From a virus, in the IMG/VR virus record IMGVR_UViG_3300046474_000061, positions 1 through 64,000 of that record: DNA of 64,000 nucleotides, one strand, 5' to 3'. Positions 22,628 through 42,488 of the stretch are shown here, in pieces. Within the stretch, counting starts at the first letter, position 1; the number at the start of each line of letters is the position of its first letter. The position numbers were made by a program, and so were the translations under genes. The notes below the pieces were generated by a model that was given only the letters and a program-made list of their open reading frames with translations, made no database searches and was not told where the DNA came from.

Positions 22628-23278
22628 ATGAGCGTCATTCATTCTACCGTGTCTACCGTTTGCACTGCTTCTCACTTCGTTGGCTGGAATCATCCCGGTA
22701 TGGACAGTGAAGACGAGAAGGTTCGACTGAACACAAAGATTCGTGTTGTCGATGAACTGATGGCACTCGGTTACAAAGAGGACTTCTCCCTCCTCGAAAT
22801 CATCATCACTGACCACCAGCGTACCAAGTATCGTCTCGATGAATTCATTCCGAACATCGGCTTCCAGATGGTCTTCGAATCCAAGAAGGACGAAGCTGCT
22901 CAACGACAGAAGTCCACAGGTAATCTCACCGTATGGTGTGCTGAGCCTCTGGTCTACAAGAAGGCTATCGAGTCCTACAAGAAGGAGCTTGCTGTCCTCA
23001 AGGAGAAGATTGATCCTCCGAAGAAGCCTGACCCCAAGCGTCTTGCCATTGAGACACTGCTCCTCTCGAAGCTCCGTAAGGCTAAGATGGTTCAAGACAA
23101 TACGGCAGTGAACAACCCGATTGCCCAGGTTCTTCTTGTCGAAGCTGATGTGTTCCAGAAGCATATCAAGATCAAGTATGGCTTTGATGTGAACAAAGTG
23201 ATTGGTGCTACTTGGACTAAGGCAACCATTCGTCAGCTCAAAGAGGCTCATGTAAGATGGCAGAACGAACTTCTCTAA
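22628..23278 (+). CDS. hypothetical protein, 216 aa, first gene of ligase block
   Basis: ATG 22628 behind AAAGGGGAT; the longer upstream reading has no ribosome site. Helical, with a long coiled region (about residues 105-150, KAIESYKKELAVLKEKIDPP). A HFVGWNHP motif near residue 15 could be catalytic but is not one I recognise. It overlaps the next gene by 22 bases. Confidence 0.65.
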   Translation: MSVIHSTVSTVCTASHFVGWNHPGMDSEDEKVRLNTKIRVVDELMALGYKEDFSLLEIIITDHQRTKYRLDEFIPNIGFQMVFESKKDEAAQRQKSTGNLTVWCAEPLVYKKAIESYKKELAVLKEKIDPPKKPDPKRLAIETLLLSKLRKAKMVQDNTAVNNPIAQVLLVEADVFQKHIKIKYGFDVNKVIGATWTKATIRQLKEAHVRWQNELL

Positions 23279-23535
23279 GGATTGGTGATCGGGTAGAACA
23301 TTGGGCTGGTCCTAGTGGTACTGGTGGTAATCCTAACTGCTATGGAGCTACAGGAGTTATCTTGGAATTCTATCCCGGCACGAGGTGCGCTAGGGTCATG
23401 TTTGACGACCACTGTTTACAAGCGAATGGTGGTCCTATTAATACAAGGATAGGACCTTGGATTGTCGACCGCCTTCGCTTGATAGAGATTCCATATGATG
23501 CCTCTCAACAAGGTGACACCGATGAGGATATTTAG
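23257..23535 (+). CDS. SH3-like small protein with acidic tail (copy 2)
   Basis: A 92-aa product. N-terminus SLRIGDRVEHW is the barrel start typical of SH3/KOW-like folds, followed by GATGVILEFYPGTR and ending IPYDASQQGDTDEDI. The next gene starts inside the tail codons. A binding module rather than an enzyme is likely. Confidence 0.75.
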   Translation: MAERTSLRIGDRVEHWAGPSGTGGNPNCYGATGVILEFYPGTRCARVMFDDHCLQANGGPINTRIGPWIVDRLRLIEIPYDASQQGDTDEDI

Positions 23536-23791
23536 TGTAGGTCAGGAGGTCGAATACACTGCTGGCCATAGAACTGGTGAGAAGACTTGGAAAGGTTCTC
23601 GGGGTACTGTAGTCAACATAGATGGTGATGATGGGCATCCTCATGTCAATTGGCACTCAGGCCCATTAGTAGAATGGCTTGTTTCCAAGGGTATGATTCT
23701 TAGAACCATGAGTCATCATCCAAACAATCTTGGTCCTACTGAATACACATATGACCCAAATCAACAAGGAGATACTGACGATGACCTCTAA
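23522..23791 (+). CDS. SH3-like small protein with acidic tail (copy 3)
   Basis: ATG 23522 is inside the previous tail behind AAGGTG. An 89-aa product: MRIFSVGQEVEYTAGHRTGE..., GSRGTVVNIDGDDGHPHV, ending YTYDPNQQGDTDDDL. The MRIFSV start recurs at 33999 because the same tail codons are read in the +1 frame. Confidence 0.75.
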   Translation: MRIFSVGQEVEYTAGHRTGEKTWKGSRGTVVNIDGDDGHPHVNWHSGPLVEWLVSKGMILRTMSHHPNNLGPTEYTYDPNQQGDTDDDL

Positions 23792-24392
23792 GGGTAAGGT
23801 CTATATCGTTGGCACTGATAGGTTGGTAGCTTCCCTCTTCTTCGAGAGGAACTATACCATCTGTAACAATCAAGATGATGCAGATATCCTCTGCTTCCTT
23901 GGTGGTGCTGACATTCACCCACGATACTACAATCAGGAGATCAATCGGGATGCTCACGTTAATGTAAGCAACATCGATGACACCCGTGATGAACATGCTT
24001 GGCGTCGTAAACGAAAGGACCAGCTTGCGGTAGGTATCTGCCGTGGTGGTCAGTTCATCAATGTCATGTCTGGTGGCAAGATGCTCCAGCATGTCTCTGG
24101 TGGACACACCAGTCCACATATGGTTCGTGATGTGTACTGGCATTCAGACATTCTTGTATCCTCACATCATCACCAAATGATGGTTCCTGGAGAGGATGCA
24201 GAAATGATGGCTTACTCTCATGGTCTTCTCAATGAGGCTATGAATGACAAGGGTAAGTGCAATATCCCTGAGTTCGAACCAGAAGTTCTCTGGTATGAAC
24301 ACTCGAAGTCTTTGTGTGTCCAGAGCCATCCTGAATGGAACCCGAAGAGTGGTGCTGACTACTTCTTCAAACTTGTGGACCTCGTAAAATGA
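23781..24392 (+). CDS. class I glutamine amidotransferase-like protein
   Basis: A 203-aa protein from ATG 23781 within the previous tail. GATase I pattern: LCFLGGADIHP (oxyanion strand), nucleophile elbow VGICRGGQF (Cys near residue 82), and catalytic His-x-Glu in QSHPEWNP near the C-terminus. This fold (with gamma-Glu-GABA hydrolase, PuuD) cleaves amide or gamma-glutamyl bonds or supplies ammonia. Among the ligases it could deamidate, edit or feed NH3. Confidence 0.8.
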   Translation: MTSKGKVYIVGTDRLVASLFFERNYTICNNQDDADILCFLGGADIHPRYYNQEINRDAHVNVSNIDDTRDEHAWRRKRKDQLAVGICRGGQFINVMSGGKMLQHVSGGHTSPHMVRDVYWHSDILVSSHHHQMMVPGEDAEMMAYSHGLLNEAMNDKGKCNIPEFEPEVLWYEHSKSLCVQSHPEWNPKSGADYFFKLVDLVK

Positions 24393-24643
24393 GACTCAAG
24401 GTTGGCGACAGAGTTCGAGTTTGTACCCAAAAATGGGGTGAGAACCAATTTGGTTTAACTGGCGTTATCTCTTCTCGATACCAACCCAACAGTTCCATCT
24501 ACAGATTGGATTGGGAGATAAAATACGACACTCCTTGGGGAACTCTTCGGTACAACCAGTATGCTGAAGACGATCTAGAACTCCTTTATAAAGAACTTCA
24601 ATATGACCCTAATCAACAAGGTGATACAGACGATGACATCTAA
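24389..24643 (+). CDS. SH3-like small protein with acidic tail (copy 4)
   Basis: An 84-aa product whose ATGA start overlaps the previous stop. Barrel start RLKVGDRVRVCTQKWG, then LTGVISSRYQPNSS, ending ELQYDPNQQGDTDDDI. The next gene starts in the tail codons. Confidence 0.75.
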   Translation: MRLKVGDRVRVCTQKWGENQFGLTGVISSRYQPNSSIYRLDWEIKYDTPWGTLRYNQYAEDDLELLYKELQYDPNQQGDTDDDI

Positions 24644-25529
24644 GAAGACAGACTTCCTTTCCCTCTCTGGGATTTCATACATCATCTATACCGATGGTGA
24701 CATCCAGAACGTTCGTCAGCAACAGCCGTGCTATGGCGAACTCCGTAAGTACGAGAAGACCCATCCGGGTGAATGCACTCAGCCGAAGAATGGAAAACCG
24801 GGAGATCTTCACTCTCCGTTCCCTGCTGGTACTCCTACCTCTCTGGAAGTTCCATTTGGTCAGTTCGCTGGTCAGTATGGTGGTGCTCCTCTTTCGGAGG
24901 AAACAGACCGTCTGTTCCAAGCGATGTTCTCCACCAACTCTCCTTGGGTTGCTGGCTTCGGTGAGGTAGAGTTTGTTCGTAAGGACAAGTTCATCCATGG
25001 TATCCGTATTCCGGACCTGACGATTGACCCTACCGTTCTTGTCAACTGCTTCAAGAACTTCCGTGCTACCCTTCCCCGTGCTGCTGAGTTCGCTGAGCTG
25101 GTGGATGCTGGTCTTACGGAGAATGAAGCTCTCGTTGCCCTCACTCTAAACAATGGTGGCTCTCTGAAGAATGGTATTGGTGCCACTGGTGCCTACTCTG
25201 GTCCAGTCATCTTCTCTGCCAAGAGGTTCTTCCAGCAGAAGCCCAATGACCTGACTGGTGGTTATCTCAAGGATCGTATTGACTACAATCGTACGAACAT
25301 GGGAGACCCCTTCCTGTCCACCATTGAAGCCGGTGGTGTACGTTGGCAGGAGATTGCCACTAAGCATGGCCTGAAGAAGATGTACGAAGGTACTAATGAT
25401 ATCAAGTCGATTGTCAAGGCTACGAAGGATGCGTTTGCAGAAGCGATCCAGAATGAGCCGGAGCCAGTCATCAAGCCTTGGATCTGGACAACCACATCGG
25501 GGAAAACCAATGGACCAATCGCAGCCTAA
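24633..25529 (+). CDS. hypothetical protein, 298 aa
   Basis: Translation most likely starts at ATG 24633 inside the previous tail (MTSKKTDFLSLSG...). Well-formed protein composition with KNGIGATGAYSGPVIF near residue 180. No enzyme motif recognised. It is one of the main-body genes of the cluster, so a structural or substrate role in the same pathway is plausible. Its end overlaps an 18-aa tail-only peptide frame. Confidence 0.65.
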   Translation: MTSKKTDFLSLSGISYIIYTDGDIQNVRQQQPCYGELRKYEKTHPGECTQPKNGKPGDLHSPFPAGTPTSLEVPFGQFAGQYGGAPLSEETDRLFQAMFSTNSPWVAGFGEVEFVRKDKFIHGIRIPDLTIDPTVLVNCFKNFRATLPRAAEFAELVDAGLTENEALVALTLNNGGSLKNGIGATGAYSGPVIFSAKRFFQQKPNDLTGGYLKDRIDYNRTNMGDPFLSTIEAGGVRWQEIATKHGLKKMYEGTNDIKSIVKATKDAFAEAIQNEPEPVIKPWIWTTTSGKTNGPIAA

Positions 25530-25566
25530 CTCTGGTCAACAGGGGGATACTGAAGATGACATTTAA
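25510..25566 (+). CDS. 18-aa peptide consisting almost only of the acidic tail
   Basis: ATG 25510 encodes MDQSQPNSGQQGDTEDDI. This is the family tail with practically no head. It overlaps the end of the 298-aa gene, and the next gene starts at 25556 inside it behind CAGGGGGAT. It could be a minimal peptide substrate or only a surviving coupling element. Confidence 0.5.
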   Translation: MDQSQPNSGQQGDTEDDI

Positions 25567-25828
25567 TCCGGGTGATAGGGTGATGTACGAAGGCGACCCT
25601 ATTGAATTCTCTCTTTCCTATAAGGCATGGCATGGCTCCCTTGGCACTGTAATGGCAACGAACAACACATTTCCTGAGAGAACACTTGTAGTGTGGGACG
25701 AAGACTCTTTGTTTGCTAAAGATAAAGATAATCGTGCTCGAAAAGGGGATCATCGTACTCATCTCCTTCGTAGTGCAGAACTTCAATACGATCCGTCACA
25801 ACAAGGTGACACCGAAGAAGATATCTAA
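25556..25828 (+). CDS. SH3-like small protein with acidic tail (copy 6)
   Basis: A 90-aa product: MTFNPGDRVMYEGDP, GSLGTVMATNNTFPERT, ending AELQYDPSQQGDTEEDI. Here the tail has no overlapping ATG; the next gene starts 14 bases later with its own AAAGGA site. So the tail is conserved even when it does not carry the next start codon. Confidence 0.75.
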   Translation: MTFNPGDRVMYEGDPIEFSLSYKAWHGSLGTVMATNNTFPERTLVVWDEDSLFAKDKDNRARKGDHRTHLLRSAELQYDPSQQGDTEEDI

Positions 25829-25842
25829 CAAAGGATAATAAC

Positions 25843-27021
25843 ATGTGCGGTCACGCTGGCATGATTGGTACTGGAATGAGCCGGGACGACATTCATATCC
25901 TTCGGGAGTTGGGTATTGTCTCACAGCTTAGGGGATTGGATGGGGCTGGTATCTTCCAGGTTCGTTCAACAAAGCCTAACTATGTGTCGAGCAATTCGAC
26001 ATACCTCGATTGGGATTCGTTCTACAAGACGCCATATCCCTATTCGAACATGCTTCTCGAAGTAGAGGCAAGCAAGAATCCACAGGTACGAGACGTACTC
26101 AACAACACGATGGTTGACGTTGTGATGATGCATGTACGAGCCTCTACTCGTGGTGTCGTATCGATGGATAACGCTCACCCGTTTGAATTCGATAACCTTG
26201 TTGGTGCTCATAATGGTACTCTCAAGGATCAGAAGTACAATCAACATCCCACAAAGACAGATTCGGAAATGATGTTCCGTGATATCTCTCAGAATGGGTT
26301 GGGGAATATACTGAACAAGATGGATCGTGACAGTGCATATGCCATTGTCATGTACAATAAGGCTGATCGTTGTGTGTACTTTGCACGTAACGAACTTCGG
26401 ACGATGGCCTTTGCCTTCTTGAAAGATCGTTCGGTGATGTACTATGCGTCGGACTACAACATGCTCAAGTATGTTCTTGATCGTGCCAACGAAGAGTACA
26501 CCATCTATCACATGAAGCCACGTGTCATCATCAAGGTGAAGGCATCTGACATCAACAAAACTAAGTGGAATGCTCCTCTTGATACTCTTCAGGTTCATGA
26601 GAAGCTCACTCAGTCGCATCCTGTTGCTTGGAATAAGTTCTATGAGGCAGAAGCTCGTAAGCAGAAGGCTGAAAAGAAAGAAGAGCAAGTCAAGAAGGTG
26701 GATGAAAAGTTCAAGATCCCCATGGCCGCCCCTTCCCAACAGGCTCTCGTCACTGTCCCTGAAAAGAAGGAGGATACGAACAACATCGTAAATTTTCCGA
26801 AGGGGCAGACACCTCAGACCAAGGAGCCAGGGCTCAAGTTCTCACCGAAGGGTTCCTACGTAAAGTGTGTATGTGGTTGTTCAACACTTAACCTGTTTCA
26901 GGCTGATCTTGCAATGAGAGGTCAACACAAGTCCGTGACATACCATTCGGATGACCAATTCCGTTGCACCAATTGCCCTGAATATAAGCTTGGAAAGGCT
27001 GAGGAGAATGCGGTCGGATAA
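25843..27021 (+). CDS. class II glutamine amidotransferase 1
   Basis: A 392-aa protein starting MCGHAGMIG. Cys2 is the N-terminal nucleophile of Ntn GATase II enzymes (after Met removal), followed by LRGLDGAGI, HVRASTRG (His/Arg of the glutamine pocket) and GAHNGTL. The last 100 residues are a Lys-rich linker and a Cys-x-Cys...Cys-x-x-Cys zinc-ribbon-like end (CVCGCSTLNL ... CTNCPEY). It would release NH3 from glutamine for an amide-forming partner, probably one of the neighbouring ligases. Confidence 0.85.
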   Translation: MCGHAGMIGTGMSRDDIHILRELGIVSQLRGLDGAGIFQVRSTKPNYVSSNSTYLDWDSFYKTPYPYSNMLLEVEASKNPQVRDVLNNTMVDVVMMHVRASTRGVVSMDNAHPFEFDNLVGAHNGTLKDQKYNQHPTKTDSEMMFRDISQNGLGNILNKMDRDSAYAIVMYNKADRCVYFARNELRTMAFAFLKDRSVMYYASDYNMLKYVLDRANEEYTIYHMKPRVIIKVKASDINKTKWNAPLDTLQVHEKLTQSHPVAWNKFYEAEARKQKAEKKEEQVKKVDEKFKIPMAAPSQQALVTVPEKKEDTNNIVNFPKGQTPQTKEPGLKFSPKGSYVKCVCGCSTLNLFQADLAMRGQHKSVTYHSDDQFRCTNCPEYKLGKAEENAVG

Positions 27022-27235
27022 TCCTTGGAATGATGTGATGTTCCCTTGTATTCTGATCTCTAATGAGACTGGAAATAAGTACCTCTTTCAAGGTGTTGGA
27101 ACAGCACAAAGAGTGTATGATGACGGAACTCTAGGCCCTATGTCTGCCACATTGGCCAGGAGGCGTGCTCATTGGGAAATTGGTGAATTAAAATACGACC
27201 CTACTCAACAGGGCGACTTAGATGAGGATATTTAA
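27008..27235 (+). CDS. small protein with acidic tail (copy 7)
   Basis: A 75-aa product from ATG 27008 behind GAGGAGA, overlapping the amidotransferase end. The head differs from the SH3-like ones (MRSDNPWNDVMFPCILISNE...). It ends ELKYDPTQQGDLDEDI and its stop overlaps the next ATG (TAATG). Confidence 0.7.
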   Translation: MRSDNPWNDVMFPCILISNETGNKYLFQGVGTAQRVYDDGTLGPMSATLARRRAHWEIGELKYDPTQQGDLDEDI

Positions 27236-27444
27236 TGAAGATACGCATTTGGAAAGCAGTTACTGACAATGGTGATGGGAGTAATTCATCCCATATTTTC
27301 AAATCAAAGCAGGAAATGATTGAAGTCCTCGAATTGTTTGAAGTCGATGGCAACATGCAAGGCTCTGCTATTGATAGCGATGACTACACCGTCGAGTGGG
27401 CGTCGGAGATTTTTGATACAAAAGGTTTTGAGGTAATCGAATAA
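27235..27444 (+). CDS. hypothetical protein, 69 aa
   Basis: ATG 27235 overlaps the previous stop. A compact alpha/beta protein (MKIRIWKAVTDNGDGSNSSH...), acidic. No tail. Its stop overlaps the remnant frame at 27444. Confidence 0.6.
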   Translation: MKIRIWKAVTDNGDGSNSSHIFKSKQEMIEVLELFEVDGNMQGSAIDSDDYTVEWASEIFDTKGFEVIE

Positions 27445-27482
27445 TGACTACTATTAAGATTGGTGCTGATGGCCCAAGTTGA
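27444..27482 (+). pseudogene. orphan 5' end of an amidoligase gene
   Basis: ATG 27444 encodes only MTTIKIGADGPS. It matches the amidoligase start at 27909 (MTNIRIGCDPEGF) at Met, Thr, Ile, Ile, Gly and Asp, and has the TAATG overlap expected of the original gene start. The homing endonuclease gene begins inside it. It looks like the old first codons, displaced when the endonuclease inserted. Confidence 0.55.
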
Positions 27483-27912
27483 CTTCAATGGGTATACATA
27501 CGAAATTGATGAGTATGGTAACGTTTCAAAAAGAAGCGGCAAAGGTTTTGTAAAATGTTTTCCTGATAAGGATGGGTATTTAAAAATCACTATCAGAAAT
27601 AAAAAGACAGAGCCTACTTATAATGAATATATTCATCGGGCAGTATTTCGTACTTTCAATGGTGAAATACCAGAAGAGATGAGCGTTGACCATATAGATA
27701 AAGATCGTTTGAATAACCATAAAGACAATCTTCAACTTATGACAATGGAAGACAATGCTGTAAAAGGTAATGCAGAAAATTGGTTTGTTATGTCACCTGA
27801 TGGGAATGTTTTTGAAATCTATAATCTCAGAGCATTCTGTAGGGAGAATAATCTCCATTCATCACATCTTGTGACACACTCATATAAAGGTTGGAAGGCT
27901 ATTAAACAATGA
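27469..27912 (+). CDS. HNH homing endonuclease
   Basis: A 147-aa protein. An N-terminal NUMOD4-like GYTYEIDEYGNVSKRSGKG segment precedes HNH core residues: the IHRAVFRTF helix, VDHIDKDRLNNHKDNL (His and Asn of the beta-beta-alpha metal site), and a C-terminal NUMOD-like helix (LRAFCRENNL). Freestanding HNH genes make site-specific cuts to copy themselves into sister phages. AT-rich codons unlike both neighbours mark it as an insertion at the 5' end of the amidoligase gene. Confidence 0.85.
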   Translation: MAQVDFNGYTYEIDEYGNVSKRSGKGFVKCFPDKDGYLKITIRNKKTEPTYNEYIHRAVFRTFNGEIPEEMSVDHIDKDRLNNHKDNLQLMTMEDNAVKGNAENWFVMSPDGNVFEIYNLRAFCRENNLHSSHLVTHSYKGWKAIKQ

Positions 27913-28625
27913 CAAATATTCGTATAGGATGCGACCCTGAGGGCTTCCTTGTGGATGGCAATGGTGAGTTTGTTGCTGCATACGGTTACGTACCCGGTGA
28001 CAAAGAGAACCCACATAAGCTCGACGGTGGTGCTGTCCAAGTGGATGGCTTTGCTGTCGAGTTCAACATTGATCCTGTCGAGACTGCAGATCAGTTTCAT
28101 AAGAACATCAAGAAAGTCCTCTATCAGATCAATGAAATGATCCATTCGGTCGACAAGGGTATGAGCATTCGGTGGACTCCGATTGCAAAGTTCCGTTCGA
28201 CCATTTGGAATATGGCCCCCGAACAGTGCAAGGTTCTTGGTTGTGATCCTGACTTTAATGTCAGTGGTCAGATGAATGAAAACCCTACGCAGAAGTTGGA
28301 AAACAATCCCATTCGTACGGCAGCAGGTCATATCCATATCGGTTGGCTCGATGAATTGTTGGAAGATGCAACAATCAAGGACCATTTTGATATGTGCACT
28401 GACATTGCACGAGGGTTCTATCGTAGCAACCTGTCTTCCTATATTCCTCATACCAAGGAAGAAGTAGAACGTCTGAACTACTATGGTCACAGTGGTTCGT
28501 TCCGTCCCAAGAAGTATGGGATTGAACTTCGTTCTCCGAGTAACATTTGGGTTGCTCATGAGGAGTCGCAGAAGTTGATCTTCGATCAGACAAGGAAACG
28601 CTTCCATGAACTCACCGGTCTATAA
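27909..28625 (+). CDS. phiEco32-type carboxylate-amine (COOH-NH2) ligase
   Basis: A 238-aa protein of the glutamine-synthetase/gamma-glutamylcysteine-ligase fold seen in phiEco32-like phages. Seen: GCDPEGFLVDGNGEFV, DGGAVQVDGFAVEFNI (metal-binding Glu strand), RTAAGHIHIGW (nucleotide/metal His) and YGIELRSPSN. Such enzymes form amide bonds between carboxylates and amines using ATP. Its ATG lies just after the HNH gene. Relatives include the Pup ligase fold; the substrate here is unknown. Confidence 0.85.
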   Translation: MTNIRIGCDPEGFLVDGNGEFVAAYGYVPGDKENPHKLDGGAVQVDGFAVEFNIDPVETADQFHKNIKKVLYQINEMIHSVDKGMSIRWTPIAKFRSTIWNMAPEQCKVLGCDPDFNVSGQMNENPTQKLENNPIRTAAGHIHIGWLDELLEDATIKDHFDMCTDIARGFYRSNLSSYIPHTKEEVERLNYYGHSGSFRPKKYGIELRSPSNIWVAHEESQKLIFDQTRKRFHELTGL

Positions 28626-28881
28626 AGTTGGCAATAGAGTTAGTACTGGTACCCTCTTCAAACGACATGGATATAAAGTAGGGACTGTAGTTTATGTATC
28701 TCCATCTCTTACATACTATGTTCGTGTAGAAGGTTATCCCTACGATAGTAGAGAGTATCCGGGTTTTCCTAGTGGTGATGTTCATATGTGGAGTATCGAT
28801 TCTATGAATACCTATGGAATGTGTTTGGATGAATTAGAATATGATCCTACTCAGCAAGGTGATTTGGATGATGACATTTAA
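28606..28881 (+). CDS. SH3-like small protein with acidic tail (copy 8)
   Basis: A 91-aa product overlapping the ligase end. VYKVGNRVSTGTLFKRHG, YKVGTVVYVSPS, ending ELEYDPTQQGDLDDDI. Tail overlap with a short MTFNHHWF frame. Confidence 0.75.
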   Translation: MNSPVYKVGNRVSTGTLFKRHGYKVGTVVYVSPSLTYYVRVEGYPYDSREYPGFPSGDVHMWSIDSMNTYGMCLDELEYDPTQQGDLDDDI

Positions 28882-28923
28882 TCATCATTGGTTTTAGCAG
28901 AGCTAAAGAGGACGACATTTAAG
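28882..28923 (+). pseudogene. degenerate copy of the 34.6 kb tail-only peptide
   Basis: The frame reads IIGFSRAKEDDI before a stop and matches MIFDIIGFSGAKDDDL at 34595-34645, but it has no usable start codon. Both stretches sit right after a tail gene and directly before a longer gene, showing duplication of this spacer. Confidence 0.5.
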
Positions 28924-29553
28924 ATGAGACAGAAGTATAAAGGTGAAGATATCAAGGCTCGTCTTCATCACACGATCATTCGTTACGACAATGTGCCGTA
29001 TATGTGTGACGTGGACAGTGCTGGTTCGATTGGTCTGATGGACCTCGCAACCGGTTCGAGTGTTGGTCGCGTATTGTCAGACGACCCCAAGCTCGACATT
29101 TCCAGTATCAATATTGGGTTTGTCAATGTCATTCATCCTAATTACAAGTGCGCTGTATACCTAAAGCGTGAGCCTTTTCGGAAGTTCAAGCAGGGTATCG
29201 AGCTGCACTCGTTGACGCAGAAGGTTCTGCACAATGGGGTGACGACGGTCGATCATTCAGTACTCTCTTCGAAACAATTCGTTGATGCAGTATTGGGTAA
29301 GTTCCCATCGTACAAGGATGCCCTTGACCTTCTGACGAAGAAGGGTTTTCAGTCAGTTGCTATCTCTCGTGACGTAGCACTGAAGAAAGAGGATGAACTC
29401 CTCAAGGTTTACCTGAAGGATACAGAGGTTGGGTTCATTAAGCTCAGCCTTAATCTGACTAAGGTGTTTGTTCCCCGGACGGAACAGAGCTACTACCATA
29501 TGGTACTGCTCGAAGACATCAAGGGTTGGGACGTAGTTGAAGGTGTAAGGTAA
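28924..29553 (+). CDS. hypothetical protein, 209 aa
   Basis: ATG 28924 (MRQKYKGEDIKARL...) preceded by AAAGAGGA; the in-frame upstream GTT-rich extension is not protein-like. Well-mixed alpha/beta composition and no motif recognised. It sits between two carboxylate-amine ligases, which argues for a role in the same pathway. Confidence 0.6.
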   Translation: MRQKYKGEDIKARLHHTIIRYDNVPYMCDVDSAGSIGLMDLATGSSVGRVLSDDPKLDISSINIGFVNVIHPNYKCAVYLKREPFRKFKQGIELHSLTQKVLHNGVTTVDHSVLSSKQFVDAVLGKFPSYKDALDLLTKKGFQSVAISRDVALKKEDELLKVYLKDTEVGFIKLSLNLTKVFVPRTEQSYYHMVLLEDIKGWDVVEGVR

Positions 29554-29554
29554 C

Positions 29555-30601
29555 ATGGCACAGCAAGTTTCTACAATTTATGATATCATGAAGTCTCAGG
29601 GTCGCTTCACTGGCAACAAGGTTAAGGGTGCTGTCGGTGTTGAAATCGAGACTGAGACCAAAAAGAAATACGACTATCCATTGATGAAGTACTGGAACAC
29701 AGTCAAGGACAACTCCTTGCGTGACTTCGGTGTCGAGTATGTCCTCAAGGCCCCCATGGATATGCCCGAATTTGAGAAGGCTCTGGCAGAATTTGATCAG
29801 GCAGAGAAGAAATATAAGTTCGAGAAGGGTTCAATCTCGACTTCAGTGCATGTCCATGTAAATATGTTGGACGATACGTACTTGACATTGGCGAACTTTG
29901 CCACTGCGTATACTCTGGTGGAGAATCCTCTCATCAGATACTCAGGTCCAGATCGTCTCTCGAACCTGTTTTGTCTCCCGATCTGTGATGCAGAAGGTGT
30001 TAAGGACAATCTTGTTCACCTATTCCAGAATGTCAACAGGAATATGTGGAATCGTGTATCTGTTGATGCCAATAGGTGTAAGTATGGTGCCCTTAATCCG
30101 GCTCCTATCTCCACTCTTGGTACTTTTGAGATCCGTTCTTTCCGTGGTGAGACAGATGTCAAGGTAATTCAGAGTTGGGTTGACATCGTTTTGAAGCTGA
30201 AAGAGTTTGCCCGTCGTCCGGGACTGACACCTCCGGATATTCTTCTCATGTGGAAGAACAATAAGAGTGCCATCTTAGAGATTATCTTCCAAGAATATGC
30301 ATCTGAACTTCGCTTCAAGGACCCAAAGACAGGCAAGGATGCAACAGAGGATTTGATCTATCAGAACCTCAAATATGCTGCTGACATTGCTGCTGTCTCT
30401 AAGGATTGGACGAAGTTTGGTATCCTCAAGCTCAAGCCAGTCTATTTAGAGAAGTGCAAGGATGCCTTGGATGCTTTGTCACAGAAGCGTTTCCAGGTTC
30501 CCTTCGATAGTCTTCCCTACCATGAACGATTGGTTGTCCTTGAGCTTTATCATCGGAACAATCCCAATCAGAAGGTAGTGTCTATCAATGAAGACCTATG
30601 A
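29555..30601 (+). CDS. amidoligase (Amidoligase_2-type) enzyme
   Basis: A 348-aa protein with the phage amidoligase pattern: VGVEIETETKK (metal-binding Glu pair) near residue 29, TSVHVHVNM (His-x-His) near residue 96, and LGTFEIRSFRG near residue 190. It is in the carboxylate-amine ligase superfamily and predicted to make peptide or isopeptide bonds. The second ligase of this fold in the window. Its end overlaps the next tail gene by 14 bases. Confidence 0.85.
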   Translation: MAQQVSTIYDIMKSQGRFTGNKVKGAVGVEIETETKKKYDYPLMKYWNTVKDNSLRDFGVEYVLKAPMDMPEFEKALAEFDQAEKKYKFEKGSISTSVHVHVNMLDDTYLTLANFATAYTLVENPLIRYSGPDRLSNLFCLPICDAEGVKDNLVHLFQNVNRNMWNRVSVDANRCKYGALNPAPISTLGTFEIRSFRGETDVKVIQSWVDIVLKLKEFARRPGLTPPDILLMWKNNKSAILEIIFQEYASELRFKDPKTGKDATEDLIYQNLKYAADIAAVSKDWTKFGILKLKPVYLEKCKDALDALSQKRFQVPFDSLPYHERLVVLELYHRNNPNQKVVSINEDL

Positions 30602-30872
30602 ACCACTGACAAAGAAAATCTCTGAACTTCCTGATGGTACAGAGTTTGGTCCTATCAATTGGTTAAAAGGAAATAATCCCATCGGTCTATATTGGATTTC
30701 TCACAGGAAAAATAATCAGATGTTTCTAGGCCATAATGACTGGTCCGGAAGCCTCCTCGAATGGAATCTAGAAGCTTTCGATGGCTATGTTAATAAAATG
30801 GGATGGGTTATGTCCACCCAAGAACTTCAATATGATCCGACCCAACAGGGCGACACAGAAGAGGATATTTGA
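30588..30872 (+). CDS. small protein with acidic tail (copy 9)
   Basis: A 94-aa product: MKTYEPLTKKISELPDGTEF, a Trp-rich middle, ending ELQYDPTQQGDTEEDI. The head is not SH3-like, so the tail is carried by unrelated heads. The stop is 1 base from the next ATG. Confidence 0.75.
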   Translation: MKTYEPLTKKISELPDGTEFGPINWLKGNNPIGLYWISHRKNNQMFLGHNDWSGSLLEWNLEAFDGYVNKMGWVMSTQELQYDPTQQGDTEEDI

Positions 30873-30873
30873 A

Positions 30874-31674
30874 ATGTCTATTACCGCAATGTTCTCATAC
30901 AATCAGTTCTCCGAAGGTGGTAAGGAACTGGCTGATGCACTCTCTATTCCACGTATCAAGCATTCTGGTTCGAAGTTCAAGGCGACTTCCAGCAAGACCC
31001 TGTTGAATTGGGGTGCTACCTCTGACCGGTTCCCGAAGGAATATCTTTCGTGCCGAGTCCTGAACCCACCATCTGCTGTCGACAATGCAGTGGATAAGAT
31101 TCGTTCCTTTGATATCTTCAAGGCTGCGAAGGTTTCCATCCCTGAGTTCACGACAAATAGGCAACAGGCTATCGAGTGGCTGAATGCTGGTTCGATGGTG
31201 TTTGCTCGTACTCAGCTTCGTGCACACTCTGGTCGTGGTATTGTCATCATGGACCCTGAGTTCCCTGAAACTTGGGAAGTGACTGCCCCTCTCTTTGTCA
31301 AGTACGTACCGAAGAAGGATGAGTATCGTATCCATGTGATGCGTGGTCAGGTTGTGGACATCCAGCGTAAAGGTCTGAAGGCAGAGCTTCAGGGTACGGA
31401 AGGAGTCAACTTTAAGATCCGTAACCTTGCCAACGGCTTCATCTATACCCGTAATGACAATGCTGGTATGGCTCTGATCTTGTCTGCATCTGTCCCTCAG
31501 AATGTCAAGGAAGTAGCTGTTCAGGCAGTTGCTGCTCTTAGTCTCGACTTCGGTGCAGCAGACATCATCTGGAATGATAAACAGAAGAAGGCGTATTGCC
31601 TTGAAGTGAATACGGCTCCGGGTCTCTCGGGTTCTACCATCACCAACTATGCCGAAGCAATGGCCGGTTTCTAA
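30874..31674 (+). CDS. ATP-grasp ligase (RimK-like)
   Basis: A 266-aa protein from ATG 30874. ATP-grasp elements: KAAKVSIPEF, VFARTQLRAHSGRGIVIM (nucleotide-binding strand and Gly loop), FVKYVPKKDEYRIHVM, and C-terminal AADIIWNDKQKKAYCLEVNT then APGLSGST (Mg-binding Glu-x-Asn). RimK-type enzymes add glutamate or other amino acids to carboxyl groups. The third amide-forming enzyme of the cluster. Confidence 0.85.
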   Translation: MSITAMFSYNQFSEGGKELADALSIPRIKHSGSKFKATSSKTLLNWGATSDRFPKEYLSCRVLNPPSAVDNAVDKIRSFDIFKAAKVSIPEFTTNRQQAIEWLNAGSMVFARTQLRAHSGRGIVIMDPEFPETWEVTAPLFVKYVPKKDEYRIHVMRGQVVDIQRKGLKAELQGTEGVNFKIRNLANGFIYTRNDNAGMALILSASVPQNVKEVAVQAVAALSLDFGAADIIWNDKQKKAYCLEVNTAPGLSGSTITNYAEAMAGF

Positions 31675-31693
31675 TACAAGGTTTGATATTTAA

Positions 31694-32842
31694 ATGTGTG
31701 TGATTTTTCACTTTACTCCAGGCTCTAGTCTGAACAAGCAGCAGTTCATCAATGCTGTCCACAACAATTGGCATGGCTACGGTCTTGTCATGGTGGATGG
31801 TAACAAACAAATCCAAATGGTGAAGGGCTTCAATGAAGAGGGTACTGACCCTGAAGTCCTCTGGAAGTTGATTACCGACAACAATGATATCGATCGGTAT
31901 CTCCACATCCGTCATTCGACCAAGGGTGCAACAGATGAAACAAACGTACAACCGTTCCCGGTCTATTCATCTAATGATCGGATTGTGTATTTTATGCACA
32001 ATGGTACTCTTGGGTATGCTTTTGGTTCAAACAACACTGGCAAGTCTGACACCCTAGAGTTTTGTGAAAAGATCCTTCAGCCAGCACTCCTCCGTTGGAC
32101 TGGTGCAGAAGGTAAGGGTGATTACACGGATGAAGAGTTCTTTCGGCTAGTAGTGGACAAACAGTGGGTTGATAGCTCGACTGGTTTGTTCTGCTCGAAT
32201 GATCTTGCCCCTCGTCGTATCGGGAAGAACTGGTCCCAGTACAAACATCCTGACATCTCATCATCAGGTGAGGTTTGGGTGTCCAACACGCTATACTTTG
32301 AGAAGGTGTCGCGTGGTCCAATGTTTCAAAAGCTCGAAGCTGAACGCAAAGCAGCAGAGGCGGCAAGAGCGGCGCAAACGTCGAAGAAGGAGGTAGCTCC
32401 TGAACATGGTGGCCCTTTTTGGGAGGACCACATGGACGACCACTGGGGGTGGCCTCACCAGTATCCAGGCCACAACGGGCATCCGACTACGGGTGGGGCT
32501 CAGAGTGGTGTGGGGTCGAATATTAGGAAGTGGTCAGACTCCAACGCAGCAAAATCTCCTAAGCTCCTCAAGGCGATGTCAGAGGTTGTCAACACTTGGG
32601 ACTTCGAAGATGAGGAAGATATCAAAGAACTCATCAACCTGACTCAGGAAGAGTGGTATGATATCATCGAAGAGAATCATGGTGAATGGTTCGCTATCGC
32701 CATGCTCGGTCAGATCCTTGAACACTACAATCGTATGTTCATTCGAAACAAGTTCCTTGAGAACAAGCTGAAGAAGGCTGAAGCTCGTATTATTGCAATG
32801 AAGAAGGGAGAAGAACCTAATGCAAATTCGGAAGCCGCGTAG
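31694..32842 (+). CDS. class II glutamine amidotransferase 2
   Basis: A 382-aa protein starting MCVIFHFTPG with Cys2 as Ntn nucleophile; WHGYGLVMV, RYLHIRHSTKG and YFMHNGTLG are GATase II landmarks. A Lys/Ala-rich linker (about 220-240) and an acidic helical C-terminal half follow. Paralogous in design to the 25843 gene but without the zinc-ribbon end. It would supply ammonia or transfer glutamyl groups. Confidence 0.8.
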   Translation: MCVIFHFTPGSSLNKQQFINAVHNNWHGYGLVMVDGNKQIQMVKGFNEEGTDPEVLWKLITDNNDIDRYLHIRHSTKGATDETNVQPFPVYSSNDRIVYFMHNGTLGYAFGSNNTGKSDTLEFCEKILQPALLRWTGAEGKGDYTDEEFFRLVVDKQWVDSSTGLFCSNDLAPRRIGKNWSQYKHPDISSSGEVWVSNTLYFEKVSRGPMFQKLEAERKAAEAARAAQTSKKEVAPEHGGPFWEDHMDDHWGWPHQYPGHNGHPTTGGAQSGVGSNIRKWSDSNAAKSPKLLKAMSEVVNTWDFEDEEDIKELINLTQEEWYDIIEENHGEWFAIAMLGQILEHYNRMFIRNKFLENKLKKAEARIIAMKKGEEPNANSEAA

Positions 32843-33425
32843 TAATAGCTTCACTATGATGAAGGAGGCTAACTCGAACACTCCAGACTTCCGTGCTCTG
32901 AAAAGAGGAACGCATGATGAATTCCCCGTGCTAGTTACGGGGAACATGCGACACGGGAGGAACAAGAATGATATCCTTGAGGGCTGCCATTACTACGGGC
33001 CAGCTATGTCCTTCGATGATAACTATATCATGCAGAGGAACAAGAATGTCAAATCGGTCCACAATATCCCTGAGCCTTTTGTGTTCACCTTTGAGAAGGG
33101 TGAGATCCAGACATCTCATGGACTATTCAGAGATCAAGACCAGAAGCATATCGAAGGTGATGTGTATGGTGTACCCCTCCGTAAACTGACACAACTTGAC
33201 CGTATCGAAGGTAACGGAGATATGATTGAACGTCAGCAACGTTGGGTCACCTTCATGTCTCCAATTCAGAAGGAGAAGAGTATCCGTGCTTGGGTCTACG
33301 TGGTCGATCTTAAACAATACCTTGACGCCTTCTCGGGATCGAACAATCTGGAAATCTGCCGCAGTTATGGATGTAATAATCCAAGGGATGAGGAGTTTGT
33401 CGATGTCTACTACCATTCCTATTAA
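32820..33425 (+). CDS. gamma-glutamylcyclotransferase-like protein 2
   Basis: A 201-aa product from ATG 32820, overlapping the amidotransferase end. GGCT-like signature VLVTGNMRHGRNKNDIL (in place of YGTL) and GDVYGVPLRKLTQLDRIEG with the catalytic Glu. Diverged from the first copy at 21184; the altered first loop may mean changed specificity. Confidence 0.75.
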   Translation: MQIRKPRSNSFTMMKEANSNTPDFRALKRGTHDEFPVLVTGNMRHGRNKNDILEGCHYYGPAMSFDDNYIMQRNKNVKSVHNIPEPFVFTFEKGEIQTSHGLFRDQDQKHIEGDVYGVPLRKLTQLDRIEGNGDMIERQQRWVTFMSPIQKEKSIRAWVYVVDLKQYLDAFSGSNNLEICRSYGCNNPRDEEFVDVYYHSY

Positions 33426-35411: not shown

Positions 35412-36965
35412 ATAGGAAAGTGGGCTAAGACAGCACAGCCTTGTCCCTGCGGTAAGTCATCAGATGCCTATTCCATTGACACAGATGGCAAGGGTTTCTG
35501 CTTTGGCTCATGTGGGGGTAAATTCTTTAGAAACGAAAAAGAAGAGGATATGGATAATACACAATTTAAATTTGAATTCCATGAACACAGAGGACTAAAG
35601 AGACGTATCCTAGAATTGTATGGGGTACAGACTAAGTTCTATGAAGGTACACCAATCGAAGATGCTTTCTTCTATCCGAATGGAAGTATCAAGATTAGGA
35701 ACCTTGCAGAGAAGAAGTTCCGAACTCAGGGTAATTTTACTGAAGCCCACTTGTTCGGTAAGAACGTATTTGATGCTGGTTCACGTAGAGCCATCACCAT
35801 TACGGAAGGTGAATATGATACGATGTCTGTAGCACAGATGCTAGGCGAAGAGAGTGCAGTTGTCTCTGTTCGTAATGCAGCAAGTGCCAAGGCTGATTGT
35901 ATCGCAGAACATGAATATATTAATTCATTTGATCGTATTATTATTAATTTTGATAATGATGCCCCCGGACAAGACGCTGCGAAAAAGGTAGCAGCTCTAT
36001 TTGACTTTAAGAAGACGTACAATCTTTGCTTGTCAAAAGGCAAGGATGCCAACGGTTATCTGACCGATGGTTTAATGAAGGAGTACTACGATGCCTGGAA
36101 GGGTGTCCGACGTTACACTCCTGACAATCTCTTGAGTACACTCAGTGAGTTCAAGGAAGCCCTTAAGTCTAAGAGGGAAGAAAAGCTTGCTGACTATCCA
36201 TTCGAGAATCTACAACGAATGCTCTTCGGTCTACACCGAGGGGAAGTCATTGTGGTTAAGGCACCAGAAGGTGTTGGTAAATCGGAGTTCTTCCGAGCAC
36301 TCGAAAACCATGTGCTCAAGACAACCAAGCATCCTGTTGGATTGATCCACTTGGAAGAGGATAACGGCACAACTCTTAGAGCTATGGCCGGATACTTCTC
36401 TGAGAAACCAATCCTACATCCAGAAGAAAACTTTGAAGATGATGAAGTCCTCAAGATCCTCTCAGATATTATGGGAGAGCAAGAGAACCGATTTGTCCTT
36501 CACAGTTCCTTCGATGTTGAGGATGAAGATGCATTCATAGATAACGTAAGGTTTATGGTTGCAGCATGTGGAGCAGAGGTTATTTTCTTTGACCACATCT
36601 CTTGGTTGGCAACTGGTGGTGGAGACAAAGGTGACGACGAACGTAAGCGACTTGACCGTATCTCTCAGAGGCTGAAGCTTCTGGCAAAGGAACTAGGGTT
36701 CTGTCTGGTCATGATCTCTCACGTTAATGATGATGGACTCACCAGAGGGTCTAGAAACATCAGTAAGGTAGCAAACACTGTTATCTCACTGGCTCGTGAC
36801 AAAACGTCTACAGACGCACTAGAGAGGCTTAAAACACACATCCTTGTTGAGAAGGCACGACTGATTGGTTCGAAGGAAGGACCAGCCGGTTATGGCATAT
36901 ATGATGAGGAGCGTCTCATGTTGGTGGACCCTCATAAAATGGGACTGGAGTTACCTAATGAATAA
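35412..36965 (+). CDS. primase-helicase (T7 gp4-like), apparent ATA start
   Basis: From ATA 35412 the frame gives 517 aa. The zinc ribbon Cys11-x-Cys13...Cys30-x3-Cys34 comes first, then TOPRIM motifs ITEGEYD and FDNDAPG, then the helicase Walker A APEGVGKS and an FDHISWL Walker B. The first ATG (35550) would remove the whole zinc ribbon, like T7 gp4B. No ATG, GTG, TTG or CTG lies between the in-frame TAA (35406) and 35550; GAGGA sits 7 bases before ATA. Alternatives are readthrough of TAA from the zinc-finger gene, or use of only the 471-aa short form. It unwinds DNA and primes lagging strands at the fork. Confidence 0.85.
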   Translation: MGKWAKTAQPCPCGKSSDAYSIDTDGKGFCFGSCGGKFFRNEKEEDMDNTQFKFEFHEHRGLKRRILELYGVQTKFYEGTPIEDAFFYPNGSIKIRNLAEKKFRTQGNFTEAHLFGKNVFDAGSRRAITITEGEYDTMSVAQMLGEESAVVSVRNAASAKADCIAEHEYINSFDRIIINFDNDAPGQDAAKKVAALFDFKKTYNLCLSKGKDANGYLTDGLMKEYYDAWKGVRRYTPDNLLSTLSEFKEALKSKREEKLADYPFENLQRMLFGLHRGEVIVVKAPEGVGKSEFFRALENHVLKTTKHPVGLIHLEEDNGTTLRAMAGYFSEKPILHPEENFEDDEVLKILSDIMGEQENRFVLHSSFDVEDEDAFIDNVRFMVAACGAEVIFFDHISWLATGGGDKGDDERKRLDRISQRLKLLAKELGFCLVMISHVNDDGLTRGSRNISKVANTVISLARDKTSTDALERLKTHILVEKARLIGSKEGPAGYGIYDEERLMLVDPHKMGLELPNE

Positions 36966-37449: not shown

Positions 37450-39530
37450 TTGGCGAATGGAATATGGGTATTTGATTGTGAAGGAGACGGTCTTAATCCG
37501 ACAAAACTATATTGTTTAGCTGCCTGTAGCCCCCAAGGCAAGAATGTATTTGTAACAAATGATTATGACAAGATGCGGAAGTTTTTATTGTCCGCAAAAG
37601 TTCTCATCGGACATAATATTAGGCGATGGGACATTCCCCACATAGAGCGTATCCTTGGTATTAAGATCACTGCTAAGTTGGTAGACACACTGTCTCTATC
37701 TTGGTATCTCTATCCTGAAAGGTTCAATCATGGACTTGACGGATGGGGTGAGGATCTTGGTGTCAAGAAACCGGTGATCACCGACTGGCTGAACCAGACA
37801 CAAGAAGAGTACGAGCATCGTTGTTCTGAAGACGTTAAGATTAACGTAATGCTTTGGAATAAGATGTATCGTTACCTCTTCGATATTTATGGATCATCTG
37901 ATGGAGTATGGAAACTCCTCAAGTATCTCGACTTCAAACTCTATTGTGCCATGCTTCAAGAGCGATCACAGTGGAAGCTAGATATCGAGAATGCTGAACA
38001 AGCTCTTGCTGAGTTGACAGAGTTGCAGTCCCAAAAGATTGACACTCTAGCGAGAAAGATGCCACCAGTTCCTGTGGTGACATTCAAACATAAGCCCAAA
38101 CGGTTCCTTAATAAAGATGGGTCATACTCGAAGATGGGTATGGACTGGATGGCTCTACTGTCAGAGAGAAAGCTTCCACCAAGTCATGAGGAACCAATCG
38201 AGATTACCAAGGGGTATGAACAAGGTAATCCGAACTCTACTTCGCAGATAAAAGATTGGCTTACTACTTTGGGGTGGGTCCCAAGGACATTCAAGGAAGT
38301 CAAAAACAAAACGACTGGTGAGGTCAAGAGTAACTCTCAGATCAATCTTGAGCACGGCAAAGGAATTTGTGGTAGCATCAAGGCTCTGTATCCTAAAGAA
38401 CCATCCCTAGAACTCCTAGATGGTTTGTCTGTCCTACAACATAGGATTGGCATCCTCAAAGGTTTCCTGAGAGATCAGGAGAATGGATGGATCAAGGCAC
38501 AGGTTGCTGGTCTGACAAACACTCTTCGTTTCAAACATACCACAATCGTTAATCTGCCAAAACCTGGAAAGCTATATGCAGATGGCATTCGTGCCTCTCT
38601 TGTTGCTGGAGAAGGTATGATTTTGTGTGGTGCTGATATGTCTTCTCTTGAGGATCGTATCAAACAACACTTCATCTATCCTTATGACCCTGACTTCGTC
38701 AAAGAAATGATGGAAGAAGGTTATGACCCACATCTGTCCCTAGCACTATCGGCATCCGCTGTAACTATTGAGCAAGTGCTGAAGTATAAGGATGGAACAG
38801 ATAAGGGCATCTCACCTACCCGTGATGTCTTCAAGAACGGTAATTATGCCTAAATTTGGGCATGTAAAATCGTGTGAACTCAGGGAAACTCCAGAACGGA
38901 CAATCCTGAGCCAAGCCCGAAAGGGAAGGTGCAACGACTATCTCGAAAGAGAGTACACAGAAGTCTGTGGAAGCGCACGACACTCACAAAGAGTGATGAT
39001 ATAGTCTGGTCTATATAGGAATATATAGCAGCGAAAGCGGGTAGAGATTAACGACCTCTATCGAACATAACGGTCAGTATGGTTCAGGTGTGGCTCGATT
39101 GGCCAAGACTGCTGGTATCGACTTAGAGACAGCGGCGATGGTCCATGCAGCTTATTGGAAGAAGAATTGGGCAATCAAGAAGATCGCTTCGGTTCAGATC
39201 ACAAAGGTCGTCAATGATCAGATGTGGTTGTACAATCCAGTAAGTCAGCTCTGGTACTCACTTCGATTTGAAAAGGACATCTTCAGTACACTGGTGCAGG
39301 GAACTGCAAGTTATGTGTTCGACAGATGGGTAGAGTTCATCCTCGAAGTCAGAGAGCAACTCACAGGACAGATGCATGACGAATTCATCTTGTGCATTCG
39401 TGAGGGTTTTGAAGACCAATGTACCGCCCTCGTTGAGGAGGCAATGACTAAACTAAATGAAGAACTGAAACTTAACAGAGAGCTTGCCTGTGGTATCGCC
39501 TACGGTAAGAAATATAGCGACATCCATTAA
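37450..39530 (+). CDS. family A DNA polymerase, split by a group I intron
   Basis: TTG start at 37450 behind AGAAGG. The exons 37450-38851 and 39073-39530 join into 619 codons. Exon 1 has the 3'-5' exonuclease (FDCEGDGL, with Asp/Glu metal ligands) and palm motif A (CGADMSSLEDR). Exon 2 has motif C (GQMHDEF). Finger motif B (RDVFK...QYGSG) is formed only after splicing: the spacing Lys-x7-Tyr-Gly is then as in T7 polymerase. Replicative enzyme. It lacks about 85 residues compared with T7 polymerase. Confidence 0.9.
38852..39072 (+). other. group I intron (IA2-like), no ORF
   Basis: A 221-nt intron. P1 is ATGCCT (exon end) pairing with GGGCAT inside the intron, with the terminal T-G wobble at the splice site. 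The P7/R region GCAACGACTATC, the S region GATATAGTC and the end GAGATTAACGACCT...GAACATAACG closely follow the 3' part of the T4 td intron. The last base is the conserved G. It is much shorter than td because no endonuclease ORF is present. Inserted in the codon after NGNYA, within polymerase motif B. Confidence 0.9.
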
Positions 39531-40388: not shown

Positions 40389-40961
40389 TTGGCAACTCGC
40401 TACCTCACCCTTCGCGGTTCGATTAAGTGGGCAAAGGTTTATGAACCGGATGCCTTTATGGGAGCAGAAAACTGGAAGGTAACCTTCTATCCCCGTGACG
40501 ATAAGGAATGGGATAAGTTTAAAGCCAGTGGCCTTCAGTTGAAGGTTAAGACTGATGAGAATGATGGTGCTGATTACTTCCAGCTTCGTCGTCCTGTCAA
40601 GAAGGTAATTAAGGATGACTTGGTTATTTTCTCTCCACCGGAAATCACCGGTAAGGTAAATGTATCCTATCAGGATGCAGAAGGTAACAAGGTTCGTCAG
40701 TACACAAAGGGTGATGGAACTGTTGTCACTCGTGTAGGTGACCCAGTCGAACTTGGTAATGGTACTGAGGTTCTGGTTAACCTGTCGTACTACGATACCA
40801 TCAAAGGTAAGGGTCATCGACTTGAAAACATCACCGTGCTCGATCTTGTTGAGTACATCAGTGGTGGGGCCGAACAATCTCAGGAACCAACGAAGGAAGC
40901 TTCGAAGGAAGATGTGGTTAAGGTCGATAAGAAAGAACTGAACGACGACATTCCTTGGTAA
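40389..40961 (+). CDS. single-stranded DNA-binding protein (T7 gp2.5-like)
   Basis: A 190-aa product, TTG start behind GAAAGG. An OB-fold-like beta-rich body (residues 1-150), a Glu/Lys linker, and an acidic end KKELNDDIPW with a terminal aromatic residue, the hallmark by which gp2.5-type and bacterial SSBs contact polymerase and helicase. Position after polymerase and before exonuclease agrees. Confidence 0.8.
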   Translation: MATRYLTLRGSIKWAKVYEPDAFMGAENWKVTFYPRDDKEWDKFKASGLQLKVKTDENDGADYFQLRRPVKKVIKDDLVIFSPPEITGKVNVSYQDAEGNKVRQYTKGDGTVVTRVGDPVELGNGTEVLVNLSYYDTIKGKGHRLENITVLDLVEYISGGAEQSQEPTKEASKEDVVKVDKKELNDDIPW

Positions 40962-41252: not shown

Positions 41253-41972
41253 ATGAAACTCCTCATCGACGCCGACATACTCCTGTATACATCAGCAGCA
41301 ACTCATGAAGAAGCTTTAGAAGTAGAGCCAGGATATTGGACATGGCATGTCAAGGAGTACTTGGTATGGAAAACCATTAAAGATAAGCTGGCATTCTACA
41401 TGGATCATCTGAAGGGCACAGAGTACATCCTGTGTCTTTCGGATACCACTAACTTCAGAAAGACTATTGTTGCTGACACATACAAAGGGAAACGTTCTAA
41501 CCTACGTCGCCCCATTCTCCTAAAGAAACTCAGACAAGATCTCATCGATCAGGGTGCAGTCATTTATCCAAACCTTGAAGCTGATGATGTCATGGGTATT
41601 ATCTCAACCTCAGAAGAGAATTGTATTGTTGTTTCCTCTGACAAGGATCTCAAGACAATCCCCGGTCTATATTTTAAGGACTCTGAAAGTGGATTACAAA
41701 CAATTACGACTGAAGATGCTGACTACTACCACCTCTATCAGACGCTCATTGGGGATGCCATCGACGGATATGGAGGCATCAAAGGTGTTGGACCGGTGGC
41801 TGCTCATAAACTCCTTAAACAACCTACTTGGGAAACGGTCCTCAATGCGTACCTAAAAGCAGGTTATACAGAAGACTATGCTCTCCAGCAAGCACGTATG
41901 GCACGTATCTTGAGGGCATCAGATTGGAACTCAGAAACACAGGAACCTATACTATGGGAACCGGGACAATAG
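41253..41972 (+). CDS. 5'-3' exonuclease (T7 gp6-like, FEN family)
   Basis: A 239-aa product. MKLLIDADILLY is the first metal-binding strand, YPNLEADDVMG and VSSDKDLKTIPG supply further Asp ligands, and GGIKGVGPVAAHKLL is the helix-hairpin-helix DNA-binding motif. It removes RNA primers and degrades host DNA. ATG with GGGGAGA upstream. Confidence 0.9.
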   Translation: MKLLIDADILLYTSAATHEEALEVEPGYWTWHVKEYLVWKTIKDKLAFYMDHLKGTEYILCLSDTTNFRKTIVADTYKGKRSNLRRPILLKKLRQDLIDQGAVIYPNLEADDVMGIISTSEENCIVVSSDKDLKTIPGLYFKDSESGLQTITTEDADYYHLYQTLIGDAIDGYGGIKGVGPVAAHKLLKQPTWETVLNAYLKAGYTEDYALQQARMARILRASDWNSETQEPILWEPGQ

Positions 41973-42124
41973 CGGGTGATCTAACAAAGATCTCTCAGAT
42001 CCTGAATGATATAAGGGTAGTCGATAAGAATCTAAACAGTTACTTGAACACTGCCATCTATGCACTTCATTGTGCAGTAAAGGAGTTAGACAATAGCAAA
42101 AAGGAAATTCAAGAACCCGAGTGA
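41954..42124 (+). CDS. small helical protein, 56 aa
   Basis: ATG 41954, inside the exonuclease end. MGTGTIAGDLTKISQILNDI, then a second helix with one Cys and an acidic end. Its end overlaps the endonuclease I start, and the AGGAG used by that gene lies within it. Function unknown. Confidence 0.55.
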   Translation: MGTGTIAGDLTKISQILNDIRVVDKNLNSYLNTAIYALHCAVKELDNSKKEIQEPE

Positions 42125-42488
42125 AGAGAAGTGCTTTAATGTACTTAAGGAAATGGTTCCAAAGGTAACATACGAGACTGTTAAACTCCCCTACATCATC
42201 AAGCATGACTACATACCAGACTATGTCGTGACAAAAGCTGATGGCTCCATTGTTTATGTGGAGTATAAAGGAAACGGTAGGGCTTTCGATGCTTCAGTTA
42301 AAAGGAAGATGATTGAAGTAAAGAAGCAACATCCAGAGATTACAATCTATATCGTATTTCATACCAATGGGAAGAGTGGTTCCAGACGTAAGGATGGGAC
42401 TTATATGAAACAAAGCGACTGGGCAGAGAAGCATGGCTTCGAGTATTGCATCGGTCGTGAGAACATTCCAACATCATGGTTTGAATAA
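42093..42488 (+). CDS. endonuclease I (T7 gp3-like Holliday junction resolvase), ATA start
   Basis: From ATA 42093, 131 aa beginning (M)AKRKFKNPSEEKCFNVL. The catalytic set of T7 endonuclease I is present: Glu in SEEK, Asp in YIPDY, Glu/Lys in YVEYKG. The first Glu lies upstream of the only ATG (42153), so the ATG form would be dead. In-frame TAG at 42087 limits the start to the 21 codons between; none is ATG, GTG, TTG or CTG. AAAGGAG stands exactly 7 bases before ATA. It resolves branched DNA before packaging and degrades host DNA. Confidence 0.85.
   Translation: MAKRKFKNPSEEKCFNVLKEMVPKVTYETVKLPYIIKHDYIPDYVVTKADGSIVYVEYKGNGRAFDASVKRKMIEVKKQHPEITIYIVFHTNGKSGSRRKDGTYMKQSDWAEKHGFEYCIGRENIPTSWFE

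Follow-up and report, generated by a model that had tools for sequence, protein, structure and literature searches.

The E. coli infC gene has a natural AUU start, an AUN codon discriminated against by IF3, with feedback exerted by IF3 itself. Endonuclease I is encoded by gene 3 of phage T7, and T7 gp4 is made in two forms, gp4A and gp4B, from a dual start. AUA starts are known from Staphylococcus aureus, where ribosome profiling and reporters placed them in infC, ccpN, and citZ, and where reporters for three genes with AUA or AUU starts, including ccpN and citZ, gave about 10 to 30% of the AUG level (PMC13009471). Counting against an AUA reading, initiation at this codon in E. coli is quoted at up to 1% of AUG in a passage of PMC12864459 that cites Hecht 2017. 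Here, we analyzed a 64,000-nucleotide stretch of viral DNA (positions 1 to 64,000 of IMG/VR record IMGVR_UViG_3300046474_000061, which comprises 69,935 bases; hereafter the window). We put at about 0.88 the probability that AUA 42093 is the genuine start of an endonuclease I gene and that these related phages use AUA as an accepted start codon in their replication genes, a reading drawn from genome comparison.

Upstream, the endonuclease frame is bounded by an in-frame TAG, followed by ACA and then by the ATA (Table 1). The initial annotation had bracketed the start between this TAG and ATG 42153, and reading the window sequence bore this out to the base: ATG 42153 is the next ATG, GTG, or TTG in the frame, there is no CTG in between, and exactly 7 nt (TTAGACA) separate AAAGGAG from ATA 42093. 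From the ATA, the frame runs to a TAA at 42486 to 42488 and encodes 131 residues with the N terminus IAKRKFKNPSEEK. The protein matched Pfam PF05367 (Phage_endo_I; E 2e-14, 53.8 bits, cut-off 29.1) and PHROG 945 (3e-26), in both cases from residue 4, and its profile also matched T7-type endonuclease structures (the PDB 1m0d family and relatives). Since homology begins at residue 4, it already extends far upstream of ATG 42153. The catalytic-type Glu likewise precedes that ATG, as had been claimed; it is residue 11 and, with D43, E57, and K59, invariant in the clade alignment, and it is included in the protein only if translation starts before residue 11. The alignment with the T7 structure stopped short of this first Glu. 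Glu11 stands 16 residues ahead of a conserved Tyr, which we take to be the same spacing as from Glu20 of T7 endonuclease I, and the wider comparison with the T7 catalytic residues is presumed in the same way. Judged by profile matches and catalytic residues, the window protein belongs to the phage endonuclease I family (PF05367, T7 gp3). The small ORF that overlaps the ATA in another frame had no Pfam or PHROG match. Small ORFs between the exonuclease and endonuclease genes begin exactly 139 nt before the AUA or AUC in the window, G003, N3_19, and N3_13 (L002, L009, and L010), a start position shared despite little sequence similarity there between the window, G003, and the N3 pair.

Table 1. 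Replication genes and start-site elements of the window (window coordinates)
Feature	Position	Strand	Remarks
Primase-helicase (T7 gp4 type), ATA start at 35412-35414	35412..36965	+	PHROG 239, 1e-107
Internal ATG of primase-helicase	35550..35552	+	GAAGAGGA upstream
Family A DNA polymerase, first exon, TTG start	37450..38850	+	
gp2.5-like SSB, TTG start	40389..40961	+	Predicted structure matches T7 gp2.5
5'-3' exonuclease (T7 gp6 type), canonical ATG start	41253..41972	+	PHROG 107, 2e-58; upstream of endonuclease
Small upstream ORF, 56 aa	41954..42124	+	Other frame, overlaps ATA; candidate for translational coupling
Shine-Dalgarno element AAAGGAG	42079..42085	+	7 nt before ATA; normalized spacing in relatives' endonuclease genes 5-9 nt, mostly 6
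In-frame TAG	42087..42089	+	Upstream bound of endonuclease frame
ATA start codon of endonuclease I	42093..42095	+	Sole start-like codon between stop and catalytic Glu
Endonuclease I (T7 gp3 family), AUA start	42093..42488	+	131 aa plus stop; PF05367, PHROG 945, 1m0d family
Catalytic-type Glu codon (residue 11)	42123..42125	+	Invariant E11 in alignment

Among named members of the phage collection, the window phage is closest to Sinorhizobium phage phiM6 and to RHph_N3_19, N3_13, and I3_11, which are Rhizobium phages. Several IMG/VR contigs group with these phages, and a search for relatives in bacterial genomes gave no match. Reading each endonuclease frame from its upstream stop, we found among 14 distinct phages, the window included, 10 with an ATA start (the window, G001, G002, G003, G004, G006, phiM6, N3_13, G013, and G016), two with ATC (N3_19 and G008), one with ATG (G015), and one ambiguous case (G010). 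The presence of ATA or ATC with a Shine-Dalgarno element at the equivalent position in 12 of the 14, phages whose sequences diverge at many other bases, supports initiation at ATA 42093. In G010 (L172), which reads AGGAGA-ATG-TAT-CTG, the ATG is too near the Shine-Dalgarno element and the CTG stands at the usual distance, suggesting a possible CTG start. The ATG of G015 shows that AUA is not obligatory, the start in the outgroup G007 is TTG, and most of the more distant relatives have ATG. Assignments are less certain for four of the phages, with in-frame ATGs lying upstream of the ATA or ATC by four codons in G003, two in G008, and about 14 in G016 (those of G003 and G016 without a good Shine-Dalgarno element), and with an ATG (18 codons) and a GTG upstream in G001, both within the exonuclease gene. 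In the endonuclease tree, ten AUA or AUC phages, none with ATG, formed one supported clade (95/94), and parsimony required at least two changes between AUN and canonical starts overall. Across the invariant Lys, Glu, and Gln columns of this ten-phage clade, the third base mixed A and G in 11 of 12 and was A throughout in none; these columns, only 12 in number, suggest that ATG has been selected against at the endonuclease start within the clade.

Conserved ORFs were also compared without regard to annotated starts. A second AUA gene was found in the window, encoding the primase-helicase, where the sequence from 35406 reads TAA GAG ATA GGA AAG TGG and the first canonical start, ATG 35550, lies downstream of the zinc-finger cysteines. 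This ATG possibly initiates a shorter product resembling T7 gp4B. At the aligned primase-helicase start, ATA occurred in three phages (the window, G002, and G013) and ATG, TTG, or GTG in the others; the G015 gene (L181) has one TGA codon inside its reading frame. ATA was also the SSB start in five phages (G002, G003, phiM6, G013, and G016), the remainder having ATG or TTG, and the DNA polymerase start in two (N3_19 and N3_13). The SSB sequence at 40389 had no Pfam or PHROG match; its AlphaFold model (mean pLDDT 82) had T7 gp2.5 as best PDB match (1je5; E 6e-6, TM about 0.5), and the product is predicted to have the gp2.5 fold. Just 6 to 27 nt separate the ATA from an in-frame stop upstream, with no canonical start between, in the primase, the polymerase, and most of the SSB genes concerned. 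In the G002 SSB gene, the next canonical codon is 86 codons on and all three frames are closed within 44 nt upstream; in phiM6, GTG and TTG are available upstream of the SSB ATA. Parsimony placed at least five changes at the SSB start codon and at least three at that of the primase, on trees in which several branches were weakly supported. The recurrence of ATA in the start columns of these three genes in the same phage group, at positions filled by ATG, TTG, or GTG in orthologues, lends further support to initiation at ATA 42093. The AUA start that the initial annotation had proposed therefore appears real, and what was described as a single oddity is instead recurrent across a phage group.

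Normalized to GGAGG, the Shine-Dalgarno spacing was 5 to 9 nt, mostly 6, in most AUA cases. Exceptions were the window primase, which has only GAGG at 8 nt, and the polymerase cases, where the spacing is poor (13 nt) or the element is a weak AGGGA 6 nt from the ATA. The AAGGAG-N7-ATA pattern occurred twice in the window against 0.63 expected, a count uninformative by itself. Within 29 coding stretches of the window, ATA made up 6.7% of Ile codons and 0.35% of all codons, and since it is rare in coding sequence yet recurs at the endonuclease start in independent phages, chance is unlikely. AT pressure was considered as a cause of the AUA starts and rejected, the window having a GC content of 44.5% and ATA being a rare internal codon. 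Every AUA start examined precedes a purine, which creates an overlapping TAA or TAG in the +1 frame; the purine could reflect chance or aid a weak start.

The comparison of the phiM6-like set covered 494 conserved ORFs and raised 27 flags, 12 of which were AUA or AUC starts by inspection, the remainder being shadows, leader alignments, or fragments. In seven T7-like control phages, 191 conserved ORFs raised five flags, and inspection revealed no AUA start among them, only alignments into the leader, a frameshift extension, and a fragment. Flags were classed by eye with the source set known to the sorter, and the controls include one Rhizobium phage, I20, which says little about the host, as just 16 of its ORFs had homologues in at least two genomes and these included shadows. 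Many ORFs flagged in the first scans had been discarded: some were shadow ORFs or lay at window edges, and others were the second exon of the intron-split polymerase or alignments into the Shine-Dalgarno region. By sequence comparison, the endonuclease and primase genes of the window and several of their relatives have no canonical start between the in-frame stop and the conserved coding sequence, and either the codon is conserved together with its Shine-Dalgarno element or a canonical start replaces it in orthologues, though less clearly for the window primase and the two polymerases.

An overlapping upstream ORF raises the alternative that the endonuclease is made by programmed +1 frameshifting as a fusion to that ORF, which is open across the ATA and in the same relative frame in the window and at all other endonuclease loci checked. 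We consider this very unlikely, as the loci share no slippery sequence, the overlaps range from 5 to 59 nt, and the upstream protein varies, being an exonuclease, a Cas4-like protein, or unrelated small ORFs. Moreover, the AUA-start SSB, primase, and polymerase genes have their other frames closed near the start and no gene-sized ORF across it, apart from a 40-codon frame in the G003 SSB gene and a 53-codon frame ending at the window primase start. Lacking a comparable overlapping gene, they face the same problem, which frameshifting cannot solve there; a conserved slippery site with an overlap in all members and genes was not found. Read-through of the TAG, another outcome envisaged for this locus, is superfluous, and the upstream in-frame stops of relatives vary in type and position, so it cannot explain them. 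Translation from ATG 42153 would use the first canonical start codon and yield a shortened protein of 111 residues. It would, however, forfeit the invariant Glu11 and the conserved N-terminal residues, homology of the relatives reaches back to the ATA, and their next canonical codons sit elsewhere, often much later; the initial annotation was right to disfavor this start, which we regard as scarcely credible.

A single base change would turn the ATA into ATG, and an error of sequencing or assembly at 42093 to 42095 had been named as a possible refutation. ATA or ATC nevertheless stands at the same position in the independently sequenced isolates phiM6, N3_13, and N3_19 and in several metagenome contigs with many other differences, so that an error can be excluded for practical purposes. 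Adenosine-to-inosine editing or another RNA modification could make AUA resemble AUG after transcription, leaving initiation effectively canonical. This would be compatible with the DNA sequence and account for the interchange with ATG, yet it would leave the ATC starts unrepaired; no editing enzyme was recognized among the window proteins scanned, and no common sequence surrounds the codon apart from the following purine. Such editing is highly improbable.

If AUA is the start, the Shine-Dalgarno element would most likely position the 30S subunit, with assistance from ribosomes that terminate on the overlapping upstream gene. fMet-tRNA(CAU) would then pair with AUA through a C-A mismatch at the third position, where a mismatch is disfavored by IF3 (PMC10158994). 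As IF3 would normally reject this pairing, initiation at AUA would work with reduced yield, and attenuated initiation may be the role of the codon. A lower yield would fit an enzyme that cleaves branched DNA. The weak endonuclease start was probably kept by selection, holding down this junction-cutting nuclease. At the SSB, primase, and polymerase starts, AUA alternates with UUG and AUG and would be a tolerated weak-to-moderate start, a pattern that suggests tolerance rather than strict control. A broader proposal, which we hold to be unlikely, is that start-codon choice is relaxed in infected cells, through a feature of the rhizobial host or an unrecognized phage factor acting on IF3, the initiator tRNA, or the 30S subunit, making AUA a regular fourth start codon across the replication module. 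No tRNA reading AUA was detected in the window or the other relatives scanned, only tRNA-Arg and tRNA-Gln in G001 and one undefined call in N3_13. Pfam recognized no translation factor among roughly 40 window proteins, a scan that took in a minority of the small ORFs.

Existing annotations of these genes differ from the starts proposed here. The N3_13 endonuclease is annotated from an ATG at codon 41 of the open frame, that of phiM6 from a TTG lying five codons beyond the ATA, and that of N3_19 is absent, an opposite-strand ORF being annotated instead; both N3 polymerases are annotated from internal starts. If the AUA reading is correct, genes of this kind are cut short or overlooked by gene finders, and in several replication genes this lineage of phages repeatedly uses a start codon deemed nearly unusable. 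Orthologues with ATA, TTG, or ATG at one position would then provide a natural experiment in which to compare start-codon strength, IF3 discrimination, and the dosage of nuclease and replication proteins in rhizobia, and the group offers a natural test of bacterial start-site choice.

Other features of these genomes were recorded. In the window, the family A DNA polymerase gene is interrupted by a group I intron at 38842 to 39028 (Rfam RF00028, 91.6 bits), with a further exon from near 39045. A cluster at 21184 to 33422, common to phiM6 and the RHph phages, contains gamma-glutamyl cyclotransferase, peptidase C26, class II glutamine amidotransferase, amidoligase, and ATP-grasp-like genes and may encode a pathway that modifies DNA or a metabolite. 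In N3_13, no canonical start precedes the conserved part of the terminase frame (L097:30482-31846, minus strand), and the sequence ahead of this frame is unrelated; the gene may contain an intron or be interrupted. The ribonucleotide reductase of this phage (L097:2498-5129) is annotated as two pieces separated by an ORF that bears a sigma-factor decoy annotation, probably an intron or an insertion with its own gene.

Compared with T7 gene 3 endonuclease I and its relatives, the window gene belongs to the same protein family and lies in a similar replication-gene neighborhood; unlike the window, the T7-like controls and most of the more distant relatives start their endonuclease at ATG, GTG, or TTG. 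The window primase resembles T7 gp4A/gp4B in that an ATG within the gene closely follows the zinc finger, although its long form would start at AUA and its short form is putative. The phage genes and E. coli infC share natural AUN starts; the codon differs, and feedback through IF3 is a feature of infC. A literature search of open-licence papers found no report of AUA starts in phages or of their repeated use in a phage lineage; AUA starts as such are already known, and what appears new is that a group of phages uses them repeatedly in its replication genes. A further likeness is to infC and ccpN of S. aureus, where AUA is likewise directed by a strong Shine-Dalgarno element; yield is below that of AUG in the S. 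aureus reporters, and a reduced yield is also proposed for the phage starts. The S. aureus genes, however, are bacterial housekeeping or regulatory genes, whereas the phage case concerns replication genes and, as far as sequence evidence goes, a repeated gain of AUA in several of them.
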